Shown: positions 12,195-22,755 of the stretch, one piece after another
Numbering within the stretch: position 1 is the stretch's first letter
Layout of the letters: every line of letters begins with the position of its first letter
Assembly: GCA_023129535.1 (NCBI GenBank)
Contig: JAGMBW010000137.1
Coordinates: 1 to 35,934 of the forward strand
Direction: 5' to 3'
Length of the DNA: 35,934 bases
Origin: Desulfobacterales bacterium
GTDB lineage: Bacteria > Desulfobacterota > Desulfobacteria > Desulfobacterales > C00003060
Notes under the pieces: model-generated
The model's database searches: none
Told to the model about the DNA's origin: nothing
Seen by the model: the letters and a program-made list of their open reading frames with translations, nothing else
Translations under genes and position numbers: made by a program

Positions 12195-12512
12195 TCAGTC
12201 GATTTCAGAAACCTTGTCGTGAGGACCGACATCAAAAAAACGCACTGTTTCATCAATCATATCAGAACAGTCATGACAGCGTAGGATTTTGTCGTCACCT
12301 CTTTTGCGACAGATTCTGCAATAGCTGTAAACGATGACAAAATTCTTTGCCACTGGAACACTGAGTAAACCACGAAGATCGTATTTCAAAGGTTCACCCA
12401 TCAGAGGTTTTTGTAATATCTTGTCGATCTTATTGACAATGCGCTTTCTAACGGAGGAGAATTTTTTCAGCGATTTGATGAATTCATCCGAATAGGTCTC
12501 ATTCATTTCCAA
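12195..12512 (-). CDS. RelE/ParE-type toxin with a CxxC...CxxC insert
   Basis: FIKSLKKFSSVRKRIVNKIDKILQKPLMGEPLKYDLRGLLSVPVAKNFVIVYSYCRICRKRGDDKILRCHDC...FFDVGPHD; overlaps the upstream antitoxin by 14 nt. Confidence 0.8.
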   Translation of the reverse strand: MEMNETYSDEFIKSLKKFSSVRKRIVNKIDKILQKPLMGEPLKYDLRGLLSVPVAKNFVIVYSYCRICRKRGDDKILRCHDCSDMIDETVRFFDVGPHDKVSEID

Positions 12513-12759
12513 AGACCTCTTTGCGGTTGTGCCACTTCATTTTGCCTGCTCGGCTCTTGTTAAGAGTTTCCATTAGGGACTTGTAGAATTCAGGAGATGA
12601 CAAAATGGTCTCCATTCCTTGATTCTCTTGAGCTCGTTTTAGATTCAAAGCCCATTGGTTTATCAATTCTGACATGGACAGTCTTTGAGAAAGCGAAAAC
12701 CCTTTGAGAAATCTCGATAGATCATCATCTAGTGTTATGTTCACCCTAACTTTTCCCAT
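12499..12759 (-). CDS. Ribbon-helix-helix-like antitoxin partner
   Basis: MGKVRVNITLDDDLSRFLKGFSLSQRLSMSELINQW; start chosen at the internal Met of ORF 12499..12825. Confidence 0.7.
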   Translation of the reverse strand: MGKVRVNITLDDDLSRFLKGFSLSQRLSMSELINQWALNLKRAQENQGMETILSSPEFYKSLMETLNKSRAGKMKWHNRKEVFGNE

Positions 12760-12797
12760 GGCAACCCCCTTTTTTCTCAGCTTTTGGAAAATGTCAT

Positions 12798-12816
12798 TGT
12801 ACACATAATATACACC
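12798..12816 (-). promoter_or_regulatory. Possible TA-operon promoter/operator (imperfect palindrome TGTA-CACATAATA-TACA)
   Basis: tgtacacataatatacacc about 40 bp upstream of the antitoxin start. Confidence 0.3.
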
Positions 12817-13174
12817 GCACTTCAACCACTGTCAAGTTCATCTAATCGTTTCCGCAATATCTGGCCCAAGATCTTGACAAGATTGGTGATGTCCATTACA
12901 AATCCATAACAAAACCGTCTGGTCGATGGCTTTTTGGTTTGGCAAGCTATCCGGAGGCAACCTGTTCCCGTGGAAGGTAGAGATTATGGCGCGGACGCTC
13001 AGTGCTCGCTGCCACTCTATCTTTTTCCCATAAGGAAAGGTTTTGGGCTGATTTGTCTTTCTATAATGTGACGGAAGTGCTGAATAGGATAGCTCCACTG
13101 GCAAAAGCTCCATGCGATGCTATCGCACTTCGTGGAGCCAACGCGCAACACGTAACTGAACCGGGAGAAAAACG

Positions 13175-13930: not shown

Positions 13931-15129
13931 ACAAAAAGGCCTTACAGGCGAAGGAGAAGAAGGCAGGGCTCGGCCCGGACATTGATCTTGATACTTTTCA
14001 GTCTGAACCCGTTGCCCACGATTATCTGGAGGACCTGGGTGCGTTATCTGCAGCCGACAAGAAGCAGATGGTCCTGGCGGGGATAGATGCCGAGGAAAAG
14101 GAGCGGTCGGGTACTTATCTTCAAAAAGACTCTGCGGTGATCCACGCCCATTCCAAACAGGAAGGGCTCGAGGTGATACCGATCAAGGAAGCGCTAAAGC
14201 AATATGACTGGGTCAAGGATTACTACTGGAAATTGGCATCAGTGGATACCGACAAGTACACGGCCAGGGCCCGTCTTGACCTCCATAACGGCTATGTAAT
14301 CAGGGCCCTTGCCGGCAGCAAGGTTATCTATCCTGTCCAGGCCTGTATGTATTTGGAAAAGGAGGGTTTAAGCCAGAACGTCCATAACATTATTATTGCT
14401 GAAGAAGGCTCAGAGCTTCACATCATTACAGGTTGTGCCACAGCTCCCCACGTGCAACGGGGACTCCACGTGGGCATCTCTGAGTTTTACGTCAAGAAGG
14501 ACGCAAAGCTTAGCTTCACCATGATTCACTACTTTGCAGAAGAGATGATGGTGCGCCCCAGATCGGTAGGACGGGTTGAGGAGGGCGGTCTTTTTCTGAA
14601 CAATTATATTTGCATGAGGCCGGTCAGGTCTCTCCAGATGTATCCTACCACGAACCTGGTTGGAAAGGGGGCAGTGGCCCGTTTTTACAGCCTCCTTGTT
14701 GGTAGCCCCGGCTCTGAAATGGACGTGGGCAGCCGCATTTTCCTGAAAAAGGCAGGTACCCGTGCCGAGATCATCTCCCGTGCCATCACCAACGGCGGAA
14801 ACATTATTGCCCGCGGGGACCTGATCGGTGAGGTGCCCGGCGTGAAGGCCCATCTTGAGTGCCGGGGGCTCATCCTTAATGGTGGCTCCATTCGCGCTAT
14901 ACCGGAGCTTGAGGGTAAGGTGGATGGCGTGGAGATGTCTCACGAAGCTGCCGTGGGCAAGATCGCGCAACATGAAATCCTCTATCTGATGTCTCGTGGT
15001 CTGAGTGAAGATGAGGCCACTTCGACCATTGTCCGCGGGTTTTTGAGTGTTGATATTCCGGGGCTGCCGCCTCAGCTCAAAGCTGAGATCGATCGCGCCG
15101 TGGAACAAAGTGACAAAGACATGATGTAG
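13909..15129 (+). CDS. sufB: SufB/SufD family Fe-S scaffold protein
   Basis: NIIIAEEGSELHIITGCATAPH, HISEFYVKKDAKLSFTMIHYFAEEM-type region, GLILNGGSIRAIPELEGKVDGVEMSHEAAVGKIAQHEILYLMSRGLSEDEATSTIVRGFL. Confidence 0.9.
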   Translation: MCKMRDLDKKALQAKEKKAGLGPDIDLDTFQSEPVAHDYLEDLGALSAADKKQMVLAGIDAEEKERSGTYLQKDSAVIHAHSKQEGLEVIPIKEALKQYDWVKDYYWKLASVDTDKYTARARLDLHNGYVIRALAGSKVIYPVQACMYLEKEGLSQNVHNIIIAEEGSELHIITGCATAPHVQRGLHVGISEFYVKKDAKLSFTMIHYFAEEMMVRPRSVGRVEEGGLFLNNYICMRPVRSLQMYPTTNLVGKGAVARFYSLLVGSPGSEMDVGSRIFLKKAGTRAEIISRAITNGGNIIARGDLIGEVPGVKAHLECRGLILNGGSIRAIPELEGKVDGVEMSHEAAVGKIAQHEILYLMSRGLSEDEATSTIVRGFLSVDIPGLPPQLKAEIDRAVEQSDKDMM

Positions 15130-15284: not shown

Positions 15285-15481
15285 AGGACTTATCGAAATG
15301 CCATTTTAGGGATTGGGGACATCGTGCAGAGCGTGCATGCACAACTCGTCAGTTCCCGGGGTAAATCGTGGTCAAGTCTGCACTTGACTCATCTGCCAGT
15401 AGGGCCATGCCTTGTGCGACCCTGAAATGTTTTCTTCTTGCGGGACCCTTTCAACAGTTTGTCCTTTCCCGGCCGGGGGCA

Positions 15482-15616
15482 GGTGGCCTGAAGCGCTTTT
15501 TCCGCATCTGTGCCTTGCGCTTGGCATCGCCATATTTTCCAAATCCGCCGCCCATAAACACTTCCTTGAAGATCTCGCATCAGACTTATTCAACAAATTC
15601 AACAACCCCAAGGTTT
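15482..15616. repeat. Direct repeat, left copy, bracketing the methylase-HEPN module
   Basis: Core ttggcatcgccatattttccaaatcYgccgcccataaacacttccttgaagatctcgcatcagaSttattcaacaaattcaacaa shared with 19349-19487. Confidence 0.9.
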
Positions 15617-15755
15617 CCTAGAAACTGGAAAACTAAAGCGCGTCCCCAAACTCTTTCAATGAGCATCTTTTATCAGAGAAAAAATCTAAAAGATATTTTG
15701 ACATCATCTTTAAGAAAAGCTAAGTAAATAGAAAATTAATTGACCAACCAATAAG

Positions 15756-15965
15756 ATGAAGCAGGCCTCCATTACATTTAAGACAGCACCTGAGATAAAA
15801 CAAGCTTTGGAAGTACTCTCAAAGCAGGGCTTTCGGAGCCTTTCTGCCCAGGTGGAAATGATTGTTGTCAAATACCTCGAAGAACAGGGTATTGACTGGC
15901 GGGGAGATGGCGAAAAGAAAGTCAATAAACAGCCACACTTAGGTAGCGGCAATGAACAAGAGTAA
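15756..15965 (+). CDS. Small RHH/CopG-like DNA-binding protein
   Basis: MKQASITFKTAPEIKQALEVLSKQGFRSLSAQVEMIVVKYLEEQ; overlaps the start of the methylase ORF by 14 nt. Confidence 0.65.
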   Translation: MKQASITFKTAPEIKQALEVLSKQGFRSLSAQVEMIVVKYLEEQGIDWRGDGEKKVNKQPHLGSGNEQE

Positions 15966-18639
15966 TAAAGCTGAAGCAATGATCAAGCCTATAGAGGATG
16001 CATTTTGTTCTATAGGTTATAAACGCAGTCTAATAAGGAAGGACTACGCTTACACAGATTTTTTCGCTCGGGAGGCGTCCATCAGAACGATCGATATTGC
16101 CATTTTTGGACAAGAGCCGACGGACTTCCGCTCTGCATGCTTCGGAGTGAAATTTTTTGACGATTCTTCTACTGCAGAGCTTGTTGTAAACGAGCTACGT
16201 GCCTTCGGTGCCCCACAGTTATTCATTGTAAGAAACGCAAGGTCTGAGCGCTGGCGTAACACACAAAAGAGGCCCATTTTTCGAGAGGAACTAAGAACCG
16301 ATACTTTGCCAAAGATTATCCGGGCCCGTAGGAAAGATTGGAATCCCGAAAGAATAATTAGGCAAAAATCAGGTTTCCCGGAGCCAGAGGCAACACAGTT
16401 GGATTTCATTGATGTCGGATTATTGCCGGCATTGGAACATGAAGCTTCTGCAAAAATAGATTCTCTAATCCGCCGTGTCCTTTATCGTGTCGAGCAAGAA
16501 TTAAAACGAAACAAAATACCCTTTGATGCCCCCACTATTTTCAATATTGTTTTCCGGTTATTGACGGCAAAACTTCTAAAAGACAGGGACATTAAAACGG
16601 AACCTGGTATTGATTTGTCACAGCCGTTGGCATCTTTGATTGCCGCGTCGCAATATTATGGCTACCAAATTGGGAATAAAATCAAAACCCTGCCAAAAGA
16701 ATTACTGGAAGGTATTTCAAAAGAGATCAGAGATTCCTTTTCGCTTTGTAATTTGTCTGTTGATACGCTTGCCTATGTTTACGAAAACACGTTTGTTTCT
16801 GGAAAAACTCGTAAAGAGTTGGGAATTCACAGCACCCCGTCCTACATAGCCGAATATGTTCTTTCACTAATGCCAATAGAGGATCTACCAAGGTCGAAAT
16901 GGAATGTTTTGGATCCTATGTGCGGACATGGTATCTTTTTGATAGCCGCTATGCGGCGCATGCGTAATTTACTCCCATCGGATTGGGGCCTCACACGTAG
17001 ACATAGATTCTTCATGGAAAGACTCCACGGTATCGAAATTGATCATTTTTCCATAGAAGTAGCACGCATGTGTTTAATGCTGGCAGATTTTCCTGAGTCC
17101 AATAGCTGGGATCTCCGGCGCGCAGATGTGTTTGACAAAAACATTCTTGAGTCCAGTGTGGCAAACGCTACAATAATTGTGGGGAACCCGCCCTTTGAAA
17201 CGATGAAAGAAAATGGACCTGAGATTCCTAAACCGGTTCATCTTCTCAAAAGAATTCTGCCGTCTCTGACTGAAGGTGGCCTTATCGGTGTGGTTCTGCC
17301 TCGTTCGTTTTTGGATGGAATCGATTACCAGGCTGAGAGGTCTGTTTTCTTGCAAGATTTTCATGTGCTTTGCCTCACCTCATTACCGGATAGGGTTTTT
17401 CTCCACTCTGATGCAGAAACCGTGATTGTTGTTGCGAGGAAGCAGAAAAGCAAAATTAAGAAATACACCATCTATCGTGAGGTAAAAGGTCACCATAAAG
17501 AAAGATTTCGAACCCGTTATAATGTGACATGGGAGGATAAGATCCCGCAGGCTTACTTTTCAGACCAACAGGACGGCAGGCTGGTTTTGCCCATGCTGCG
17601 GGAAATATGGGAAAGGTTAGACAGCCTGCCCCGTCTTGGAGATATTGCCGAAATCAAGAAAGGCGTTGAATATGAGCCAAAGGAAGTGAAAGGTAAACTT
17701 CATGAAATAGTTCAATCGAAACCATTTTCCAGGTCAAAGCCTGGGATCTATAATGTAACGGATGGTTTCAAATCATTCGTGGCAGATGATACAGTTTACA
17801 TGTCAACCGATAGAAAGTTGAGGAGAAAAAGGGCGATGGGGGCATGGGAGTTGGATTGGGACAGCCCGAAAGTAATCATCCCGACTTCTCGAACCTCTAG
17901 AGGCCCTTGGTGCTATGCTGCTGCCATTGACACAGAAAAGCGATTACTTCGCCGAAGTTTTTGTGCAGTTTGGCCCAAAAATGATAATGTGGAGGTCGAA
18001 TTGCTGGCGGCTCTACTTAATTCCCCCTTAGCTCAGGCTTTTGTTCATACACATACTTCTAAGAGAAATATACCTGCACGTATTTATGAATCTATACCAG
18101 TCCCACAGAGTTTGGGTGAAGCTGGTCAAATCATTGTGCCTCTCGTAAGTGAATATTTGCGGTGTCGTTCAACAGATCTGAAGAAGGCAAAAGAGATCCT
18201 CCTTCAAATCGATGCTGAAATACTCAAGCTGTATAAACTTCCTCCTCGCCAGGAACGACAGGTGCTCGATATTTTCTGGGGGGATACGCGGCGACGAGTG
18301 CCATTTGGTTTCACTGGTTACATTCCGCCAGATCAGACGTCTTTAAGGGAAGAGCAGCTATCTCCTGAGATGATCAGCTTGTACTCCTCCAAGGAGATAT
18401 TGCGGTTCTTACCTATAGCTCTTGATATCCTTCACGACTGCTTTGCTTCAATTCTAGAATTGCATGTGCTCCCGGAACAAGATCCCGAGACAGGGGAGAA
18501 ATGGATCTTGATTGATATTGCCGTTGAGGGGGATATAGCCGAGGTATTAGACAGTTATGATAATTATGCTGAACAATGGGTATCCTCGGCACCGTGGTTG
18601 GTACGTGAGAACATCAGGCTCTCTTATGACATTGTTTAA
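15952..18639 (+). CDS. N6-adenine DNA methyltransferase, Eco57I/type IIG-like architecture
   Basis: VLDPMCGHGIFLIAAMRRM (SAM motif I), IIVGNPPFETMKE (NPPF), HSTPSYIAEYVLSLM, downstream region resembling a target-recognition domain (LGDIAEIKKGVEYEPKEVKG..., ALLNSPLAQAFVHTH). Confidence 0.88.
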   Translation: MNKSNKAEAMIKPIEDAFCSIGYKRSLIRKDYAYTDFFAREASIRTIDIAIFGQEPTDFRSACFGVKFFDDSSTAELVVNELRAFGAPQLFIVRNARSERWRNTQKRPIFREELRTDTLPKIIRARRKDWNPERIIRQKSGFPEPEATQLDFIDVGLLPALEHEASAKIDSLIRRVLYRVEQELKRNKIPFDAPTIFNIVFRLLTAKLLKDRDIKTEPGIDLSQPLASLIAASQYYGYQIGNKIKTLPKELLEGISKEIRDSFSLCNLSVDTLAYVYENTFVSGKTRKELGIHSTPSYIAEYVLSLMPIEDLPRSKWNVLDPMCGHGIFLIAAMRRMRNLLPSDWGLTRRHRFFMERLHGIEIDHFSIEVARMCLMLADFPESNSWDLRRADVFDKNILESSVANATIIVGNPPFETMKENGPEIPKPVHLLKRILPSLTEGGLIGVVLPRSFLDGIDYQAERSVFLQDFHVLCLTSLPDRVFLHSDAETVIVVARKQKSKIKKYTIYREVKGHHKERFRTRYNVTWEDKIPQAYFSDQQDGRLVLPMLREIWERLDSLPRLGDIAEIKKGVEYEPKEVKGKLHEIVQSKPFSRSKPGIYNVTDGFKSFVADDTVYMSTDRKLRRKRAMGAWELDWDSPKVIIPTSRTSRGPWCYAAAIDTEKRLLRRSFCAVWPKNDNVEVELLAALLNSPLAQAFVHTHTSKRNIPARIYESIPVPQSLGEAGQIIVPLVSEYLRCRSTDLKKAKEILLQIDAEILKLYKLPPRQERQVLDIFWGDTRRRVPFGFTGYIPPDQTSLREEQLSPEMISLYSSKEILRFLPIALDILHDCFASILELHVLPEQDPETGEKWILIDIAVEGDIAEVLDSYDNYAEQWVSSAPWLVRENIRLSYDIV

Positions 18640-18642
18640 GCT

Positions 18643-19104
18643 ATGAAGCCACGCGAGTTTGAATACCTCGCCGCAAGACTTGCCGAGCGTGGTACCCATC
18701 CATCCGAATTTCGCACTGCAATAAGTCGTGCTTACTACGCTGTTTACAATGTAGGTGTCGAGTTGCTCAGGGAAATGGGCGTTACTCCAACTGAAGGTCC
18801 AGGTGGCCATGGAGATGTACGCCGTTATTTTAACTACAGCGGCAACAGTGACGTTAAAAAGGTAGCGAGCCAAATGGCTGATCTCGCTGCCAGTAGGGTA
18901 CATGCAGACTACCATTTGGATAGGAACGATGTGGAGAACAAGAAGAAAGCCAAAGCTCTTGTCCACCAGGCAACCAGGATGATTGAAACTTTGACCAAGT
19001 GTTGTACCGGGCAAAGGCGTGACCAGATTATTAAATCGATACAAGAGTTAGATCGAAAAGTTAAAAGGGCAGGGAACGATGCACGAAAGGAGAATCACAC
19101 TTAA
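18643..19104 (+). CDS. HEPN domain-like protein
   Basis: MKPREFEYLAARLAERGTHPSEFRTAISRAYYAVYNVGVELLREMG...RVHADYHLDRNDVENKKKAKALVHQATRMIETL; starts 3 bp after the methylase ORF. Confidence 0.7.
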   Translation: MKPREFEYLAARLAERGTHPSEFRTAISRAYYAVYNVGVELLREMGVTPTEGPGGHGDVRRYFNYSGNSDVKKVASQMADLAASRVHADYHLDRNDVENKKKAKALVHQATRMIETLTKCCTGQRRDQIIKSIQELDRKVKRAGNDARKENHT

Positions 19105-19348
19105 TACGTTGATCGGATACGTACGATTTAGCCCTCCATTTCGGAATAACTAAGAAATGCCAAGAAACAATCTCTGGGCATGGCAAAAATTGCGCGAGTA
19201 GTGGCTTCAGGCCTTCATCATCAGACTGGCCCTATCCCAACCTCATAAACCTTCAGCACCTCATCGCCATACGGGAAAATCCGGGATGTACCTGAAATCT
19301 TAGCATTTTGCTCCTTTCAAGAGCCTCCTCTGCCACTTGTCGAAAATC

Positions 19349-19487
19349 AGGAGGCCTGAGGCGATTTTTCTGGATATGCGCCCTGTGCTTGGCATCGCCA
19401 TATTTTCCAAATCTGCCGCCCATAAACACTTCCTTGAAGATCTCGCATCAGAGTTATTCAACAAATTCAACAACGTCCCCAAGGTTT
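19349..19487. repeat. Direct repeat, right copy
   Basis: See 15482-15616; same orientation, with small indels. Confidence 0.9.
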
Positions 19488-22204: not shown

Positions 22205-22408
22205 TCAGGGTCTGGGTTCTCTCAGCTCCATTGCTGCGGTTGTTATCTCAAACTGTTCGCCGGGGATCTCTTTGATATGGCCTTGTTCCCAGACGACAAC
22301 CGGAGTGTCGGTTTGTCTGGCCCGTTGGATTACTTTCTTTGCGGCCAGTCGGAAAGCCGCGTCGGCTTTCGATGACAATCCCGCACGTTGCTCTTTCTCT
22401 TCGTTCAT
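22205..22408 (-). CDS. Small antitoxin-like protein adjacent to the zeta toxin remnant
   Basis: MNEEKEQRAGLSSKADAAFRLAAKKVIQRARQTDTPVVVWEQGHIKEIPGEQFE (internal Met of ORF 22205..22444). Confidence 0.55.
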   Translation of the reverse strand: MNEEKEQRAGLSSKADAAFRLAAKKVIQRARQTDTPVVVWEQGHIKEIPGEQFEITTAAMELREPRP

Positions 22409-22440
22409 GGGTCTATGCCTCCACACTTCGTTTGATTTGT

Positions 22441-22755
22441 TCAAAGAGGCCGGAATAAAACAGTCGGAGTTCGCCGTAGGCGGACGTAGCTCCGTCCGGA
22501 CAGGGTTGTTTCAAAACCGAAGTCCTGTTTTGCACCGGTTAGTTCCGTGATTCGAGTCAAAAGCAACCGCCCTGCTCGCAGGTTTTGCGTCTCCGGGGCA
22601 AAGGGCGACAATCCGGCAGCGATCAGATCTGCGTTCAAGAACTCGCGGCAATTCACGAAGTCGGGCAAGAATTCAGCGGAAAAAGTGGTTTTCCCGGCAC
22701 CGTTTGGCCCGGCTATCACGTAAACCGTGGGTGATTGAACGCTGCTAGTGTTCAT
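22441..22755 (-). pseudogene. Zeta toxin family kinase, truncated
   Basis: VYVIAGPNGAGKTTFSAEFLPDFVNCREFLNADLIAAGLSPFAPE...DFGFETTLSGRSYVRL is intact, but the remainder expected for this family is missing after about 90 aa. Confidence 0.78.

Follow-up and report, generated by a model that had tools for sequence, protein, structure and literature searches.

The methylase operon

We examined a stretch of 35,934 nucleotides (the window), positions 1–35,934 of contig JAGMBW010000137.1 from the Desulfobacterales bacterium assembly GCA_023129535.1, and within it the region 15482–19487, where a preliminary description had recognised a candidate defence module made up of a ribbon-helix-helix (RHH)-like protein, an adenine methylase and a HEPN-like protein. 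The three open reading frames (ORFs) lie where that description placed them: the RHH-like and methylase ORFs overlap by 14 nt and the HEPN-like ORF starts 3 nt past the methylase stop codon.

15756..15965, + strand: RHH-like (Arc/MetJ-type) small DNA-binding protein, 69 aa, assigned by motif
15952..18639, + strand: N6-adenine DNA methyltransferase with a target recognition domain and a C-terminal antitoxin-like domain, 895 aa (PF02384, PF12950)
18643..19104, + strand: HEPN-like predicted ribonuclease toxin, 153 aa, assigned by fold and RxxxDY motif

The methylase

The second protein belongs with the N6-adenine methyltransferases that carry a recognition domain, since the S-adenosylmethionine (SAM) motif I, the catalytic motif and the recognition domain are all present. 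Its Pfam matches are N6_Mtase (PF02384, 3.7e-16) and the TaqI_C specificity domain (PF12950, 7.1e-6, residues 638–705), and its parts can be laid out as follows.

15952..16341, + strand: conserved N-terminal alpha/beta domain (residues 1–130), without a conserved PD-(D/E)xK-type triad
16732..17511, + strand: methyltransferase core (residues ~261–520), with SAM motif I DPMCGHG and catalytic NPPF
17512..18291, + strand: target recognition region, TaqI_C-like (residues ~521–780)
18349..18636, + strand: C-terminal domain (residues 800–895), predicted cognate antitoxin or adapter for the HEPN toxin

Residue G325 of motif I and N412-P413-P414 of motif IV are invariant in 48/48 methylase homologues and F415 is kept in 46/48. 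An AlphaFold2 model built on the alignment of these 48 sequences (mean predicted local distance difference test score, pLDDT, 86) found as its Foldseek matches CamA (4.7e-24), M.BseCI, BrxX, type IIG enzymes and MmeI. The best PADLOC match was mad2 (1.3e-20), yet the protein scores 36 bits against the NCBIfam MAD2 cut-off of 720 bits; the PADLOC models see generic methylase similarity only.

The N-terminus, which the preliminary description had singled out as a possible site of a nuclease fold, is an alpha/beta domain bearing no nuclease signature among those tested for. Candidate nuclease positions are not conserved in it (D48 in 3/48 homologues, E at position 65 in 0/48 and K67 in 1/48), no Pfam nuclease family matched the methylase, and no profile similarity of this domain to type IIG N-termini was found. 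We also considered that the domain might be a decayed restriction endonuclease; the order of its secondary structure elements is compatible with this, but the type IIG profile similarity is missing and we do not claim homology. Because the N-terminal domain has no conserved nuclease signature and no nuclease family is matched, the methylase is unlikely, on its sequence, to be a self-sufficient type IIG enzyme.

The HEPN-like protein

Although the HEPN-like protein has no Pfam match and only a weak PADLOC match (PDC-M05B, 2.5e-4), its AlphaFold2 model (pLDDT 95.6) is all-helical and the top Foldseek matches are mostly HEPN toxins (probability 0.9–0.99, TM-score 0.47–0.54, E 0.1–0.5), as would be expected of a four-helix HEPN fold, albeit at E-values above 0.1. 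The conserved residues are R24, R29, H56, R85, D89 and Y90, and both the R85-D89-Y90 set and H56 are invariant across 18 HEPN homologues. The preliminary description had proposed looking for an Rx4-6H motif in this protein, and the window sequence RVHADYH does fit Rx5H, as does RNHADYH of L041, one of the relatives described below; RINADYK of G034 and RNKCDYD of L087 do not, and the motif that is conserved across the homologues is RxxxDY rather than Rx4-6H. In the HEPN-T class the motif histidine is replaced by D and another histidine is conserved elsewhere (PMC3710099), and the RxxxDY motif together with the invariant H56 agrees with that class. From sequence and model, we predict that the protein is a ribonuclease toxin.

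A widespread family of RxxxDY HEPN toxins (L142–L160 and others) was also encountered, whose upstream proteins have a varied N-terminus and a common C-terminal domain; it looks like a little-described toxin–antitoxin (TA) family without any methylase.

A toxin gene in the downstream slot across the methylase family

A single-sequence genome scan with the methylase gave nothing, but an alignment-based profile scan of GTDB genomes succeeded and yielded a family sample of 80 loci (the best 80 of 163). The family extends through Desulfobacterota, Nitrospirota, Planctomycetes, Chloroflexi, Verrucomicrobia and Alphaproteobacteria and onto plasmids. In 76 of the 80 loci at least 240 nt follow the methylase, and in 73 of these 76 the next gene encodes a PIN-domain (VapC-like RNase) protein, visibly decayed in one case (L046); a HEPN gene occupies the slot in two (L041 and L087) and neither in one (L096). 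The median gap between methylase and toxin at these 76 loci is 0 nt. In L096 the slot after the methylase holds an HNH-like frame, apparently frameshifted (L096:3205-3700).

A further methylase with a HEPN gene came from a phylum search (L126, on G322:C2) and brings the HEPN cases to four, counting the window. In this locus the methylase is preceded, at a distance of 18 nt, by a type I specificity (HsdS-like) gene. Plasmid copies of the methylase are followed by PIN in Sinorhizobium and Agrobacterium and by RES in Rhizobium Q54 (RES match 1.5e-16); neither the HEPN-like protein nor the HEPN-type tail of the methylase, discussed below, found a match on plasmids. PIN, RES and HEPN are classic TA toxin families, and the window and its relatives show what a type II TA operon would, namely a toxin gene of a known family (HEPN, PIN or RES) directly downstream of its partner.

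The preliminary description had proposed to look for conserved co-occurrence of the three families and had named a lack of HEPN conservation next to the methylase as a refutation of the module. The conserved unit proves to be the methylase with a toxin of RNase kind, in which HEPN is a rare variant and PIN the usual partner, and the RHH gene is not part of it; the proposed refutation would have been misleading, since PIN fills the very same slot.

More distant methylases (~26% identity) have a metallo-beta-lactamase gene downstream. Six of this layout (L012, L013, L014, L015, L016 and L017) are followed by a ComEC-like gene of metallo-beta-lactamase fold, and L017 also has a MerR-like gene upstream. 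In a collection of viral genomes a single methylase relative was full-length, and a PIN-like frame followed it; GenBank phages gave partial matches to the methylase core only. The PIN, RES and upstream proteins that we ran against PADLOC were not recognised. In a congener (G006), a type III-like methylase starts right after the PIN gene (L010:2-952).

Upstream of the relatives' methylase there is commonly a small protein, often overlapping it by 4 nt, with a MerR_1 match in 21/47 scanned and Xre or Zn-ribbon-like character in others; some relatives have nothing recognisable there. In a Nitrospirota-type clade (L043, L044, L047, L048, L050 and L057) a conserved zinc-ribbon-like protein of 51–60 aa precedes the methylase in place of MerR or RHH. 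The RHH-like protein of the window has no Pfam match, the RHH call coming from its motif alone; it shows no similarity to the small upstream protein of L103, and in 185 related genomes it has two weak relatives only, both solo. It is a probable operon regulator, not conserved in the methylase family but one of several accessory types found upstream.

The methylase tail changes with the toxin

PIN-linked relatives lack the final ~95 residues of the window methylase. Beyond position 780, PIN-linked methylases have 45–65 residues and HEPN-linked ones 116–128, and the RES-linked tail is extended as well. A comparison of the window methylase with L042, the PIN-linked relative closest to it, gives identities of 45% over residues 1–130, 51% over 131–260, 67% over 261–520 and 58% over 521–780; identity reaches 85% over residues 781–793 and then drops to 11%, a sharp break in homology at residue ~793. 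To the tails of HEPN-linked methylases, the window tail is 51% (L041) and 40% (L126) identical. The methylase model shows a low-confidence (disordered) linker at 796–810 and then a small alpha-beta-beta-alpha-beta domain.

The methylase tree places PIN-linked L042 within the HEPN group as the window's sister, HEPN-linked L087 elsewhere, among PIN types, and RES-linked L040 among alphaproteobacterial PIN types; because of these three placements, the tree points to at least three toxin exchanges. Tail and toxin appear to have been exchanged as a pair, since the tail tracks the type of toxin: the HEPN-type tail recurs in HEPN-linked methylases and is absent from PIN-linked ones, and the RES-linked one is Xre/MbcA/ParS-like.

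The HEPN-type tail also occurs apart from the methylase. In G034, a methylase-free protein of 216 aa matches the window tail only, and it lies 1 nt before a HEPN gene whose product is 39% identical to the window HEPN protein. A hidden Markov model (HMM) built solely from methylase-linked tails matched methylase-free proteins directly upstream of HEPN in G034 (1.3e-23) and in G401 (5.1e-31), and of 20 HEPN loci in which an ORF lies upstream, 14 had their best tail match in this ORF, against 2.2 expected from ORF counts. The G034 protein also gave a PADLOC match to Cas5, short and partial, which we set aside.

The C-terminus of the RES-linked methylase matches Xre_MbcA_ParS_C (1.2e-4) and Xre-MbcA-ParS_M (7e-4), adjacent and in the correct order. 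These domains are the toxin-binding parts of RES antitoxins. At the level of sequence, the rule that the tail matches the toxin holds for HEPN, is suggested for RES and is not established for PIN; restraint of the toxin by the methylase tail is accordingly something that we infer for HEPN and RES and extrapolate to PIN.

A proposed mechanism and its alternatives

We consider it reasonably probable that the locus is a TA operon in which the antitoxin and a sequence-specific DNA adenine methylase form one fused protein, that is, a hybrid of restriction–modification (R-M) and TA systems. This reading draws on features seen in the sequence: the operon layout, the family-wide linkage of methylase and toxin, the intact methylase motifs, the joint exchange of tail and toxin and the recurrence of methylase-free tails upstream of HEPN genes. 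From them we infer that the HEPN protein is toxic and neutralised by the tail, that the methylase does methylate DNA, and what the trigger and a role in defence might be. The HEPN protein would act as a ribonuclease toxin, and the C-terminal ~95 residues of the methylase would be its cognate antitoxin domain and keep it inactive in a methylase–toxin complex, while the small upstream DNA-binding protein would control the operon. Loss of the methylase, its block by a phage anti-methylase or anti-restriction factor, or a conformational change at unmodified target sites could be the trigger, any of these being a guess; the freed toxin would then cleave RNA and stop growth, in abortive infection or addiction, as with PrrC–EcoprrI. 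The methylation-gated RNA cleavage put forward in the preliminary description can on this hypothesis be made more specific, in that the antitoxin domain cognate to the toxin appears to be part of the methylase polypeptide itself. If the tail is the toxin's antidote, loss or blocking of the methylase could free the toxin.

Several points weigh against this reading. Most methylase-free tail matches beyond G034 and G401 are individually weak (E 0.01–2), and both RES-antitoxin domain matches fall below the Pfam curated cut-offs. A stand-alone antitoxin matching the PIN-type tail was not found near distant PIN genes, which were ordinary VapC genes, several with AbrB-like antitoxins, nor in plasmid PIN searches, which returned mostly the same methylase-linked genes along with distant cyanobacterial VapC. 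Among 73 larger ORFs flanking the family loci there are some strong matches to defence models (type IIG, type III methylase, reverse transcriptases, a CARF regulator and MADS), and these defence genes are suggestive, but the count has no control.

We advance more tentatively, and would not ourselves rate it as probable, the broader idea that these loci form a separate defence class in which an adenine methylase with an exchangeable antitoxin tail serves as a self/non-self sensing chassis for HEPN, PIN, RES and HNH effectors (and in the distant clade perhaps a metallo-beta-lactamase), release being gated by the methylation state of DNA.

The strongest competitor of the fused-antitoxin reading is direct gating in the manner of R-M systems, in which the methylase would scan DNA and unmodified phage sites would activate a bound RNase effector instead of a restriction nuclease. 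The absence of a nuclease signature from a methylase with a target recognition domain would suit this, as would its homology to the defence methylases BrxX and MmeI and the exchangeable nuclease or NAD-directed effector families downstream, but elsewhere the tail seems to act as an antitoxin without any methylase, so that the data can be explained without sensing by the methylase, and the trigger is not readable from sequence; we regard direct gating as rather doubtful. Less likely again is a plain type II TA (addiction) module whose methylase portion would serve only as a DNA-binding, autoregulatory arm in place of RHH or HTH, with neither phage sensing nor methylation-based discrimination of self from non-self. 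Tail and toxin do look like a TA pair, and the plasmid copies and tight operon overlaps are in keeping with addiction, yet an extra DNA-binding protein (MerR-like, Xre or RHH) is usually already encoded upstream, and the SAM and catalytic motifs and the recognition domain, for which a protein that does no more than bind an operator would have no use, are kept across phyla.

The module had further been described as bracketed by near-identical direct repeats of ~135 bp, taken to suggest its acquisition or mobility as a unit. The repeats are real and in the same orientation, at 127 nt and 91% identity less alike than that description had it.

15480..15606, no strand assigned: left copy of a genus-dispersed repeat, not module-specific
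19348..19474, no strand assigned: right-hand copy of this dispersed repeat, with 91% identity to the left-hand one

There are seven copies in this genome, five of them beyond the flanking pair (G000:C45, C126 and C21 among the sites), and the repeat is present in 16/22 congeneric genomes at up to 24 copies each. The flanking copies belong to a repeat family scattered through the genus, and neither is a boundary marker of the module; given this genus-wide spread they do not point to a dedicated mobile unit, although they could still recombine. We looked for an empty site in the congeners and saw no clean one: on the left, their similarity to the window stops with the SufB gene, whose stop codon is at 15129, and the downstream gene varies among congeners. 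That the repeats moved the module as a unit is, on this evidence, very improbable, even with two direct copies flanking it and a G+C content (0.44–0.48) below that of the adjacent SufB (0.53).

Least credible is a self-sufficient type IIG restriction enzyme beside a HEPN gene by chance, for which one might cite the methylase fold, which is like that of Eco57I/MmeI, and the alpha/beta domain formed by the 130 N-terminal residues, at the usual type IIG nuclease position, but which is contradicted by the missing D/E/K triad, the missing type IIG profile similarity and the toxin found in the same slot across phyla.

Relation to known systems

The nearest precedent in logic is PrrC, a HEPN anticodon nuclease that the type Ic R-M system EcoprrI silences until a phage anti-restriction peptide sets it free (PMC3506569, PMC3710099). 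Here too the gene of a HEPN RNase adjoins that of a DNA-modification enzyme, through which the RNase is predicted to be kept latent; in contrast, the module has neither HsdR nor HsdS and its HEPN protein bears no ABC-ATPase. Its recognition domain and apparent antitoxin domain are both part of a single methylase polypeptide, and the type of toxin is exchangeable. With type II TA systems (VapBC PIN, Xre-RES and HEPN pairs) it shares the toxin families downstream and a tail that resembles the HEPN or RES antitoxin part, but here that domain forms one protein with an adenine methylase of ~780 residues. The MNT-HEPN (HepT-MntA)/PDC-M05 systems provide the closest HEPN toxin fold by structure and the weak PDC-M05B match; PDC-M05 consists of a nucleotidyltransferase and a HEPN protein (PMC12988326), whereas no nucleotidyltransferase is present here and the upstream gene is the methylase.

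Type IIG/IIL enzymes (Eco57I, MmeI, BpuSI, DrdV), CamA and BREX PglX/BrxX resemble the methylase in core and recognition fold, but the module has no recognisable nuclease domain and no BREX partner genes, and its effector is a separate toxin gene. The likeness to MADS is confined to mad2 as the best PADLOC match, far below the MAD2 cut-off, and no other gene of the MAD1–MAD8 set is adjacent in the window. Panacea likewise combines one conserved module with many toxins (PMC8832971), but there one antitoxin domain neutralises many toxins, while here the tail changes with the toxin and the methylase stays.

Makarova and colleagues (PMC3506569) proposed toxin-coupled immune systems without typical antitoxins, in which immunity components restrain the toxin, with PrrC–PrrI as the worked example, and Anantharaman and colleagues (PMC3710099) found the HEPN domains of R-M systems fused to nucleases, helicases and ATPases, not to methylases. 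Neither PADLOC nor the literature that we searched contained a described system with the methylase–toxin architecture, including a methylase–toxin fusion or a PIN–methylase pair. The present family offers a direct case of a DNA-modification enzyme apparently bearing a toxin-matched antitoxin domain. Its natural series of swaps (HEPN, PIN, RES, HNH) on one methylase should help in finding out whether an RNase can be controlled through methylation state, and the operon is small enough for testing in a laboratory strain.

Neighbouring genes

The left neighbours of the module are SufC and SufB and the right neighbour is unclassified, so that the earlier statement that no separate restriction endonuclease is adjacent stands. 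The scanned neighbours in the window are SufBC, YcaO and unclassified genes, with no PglZ or DUF499/BrxC ATPase (BREX partner genes) among them. Between YcaO and SufC lie a probable ParE-like toxin gene (weak Pfam match, 1.5e-4) and a small partner gene upstream (12195-12512 and 12499-12825, − strand). At 22205-22755 (− strand) there is what may be a fragment of a Zeta-toxin-like gene (0.0014), accompanied by a small partner gene.

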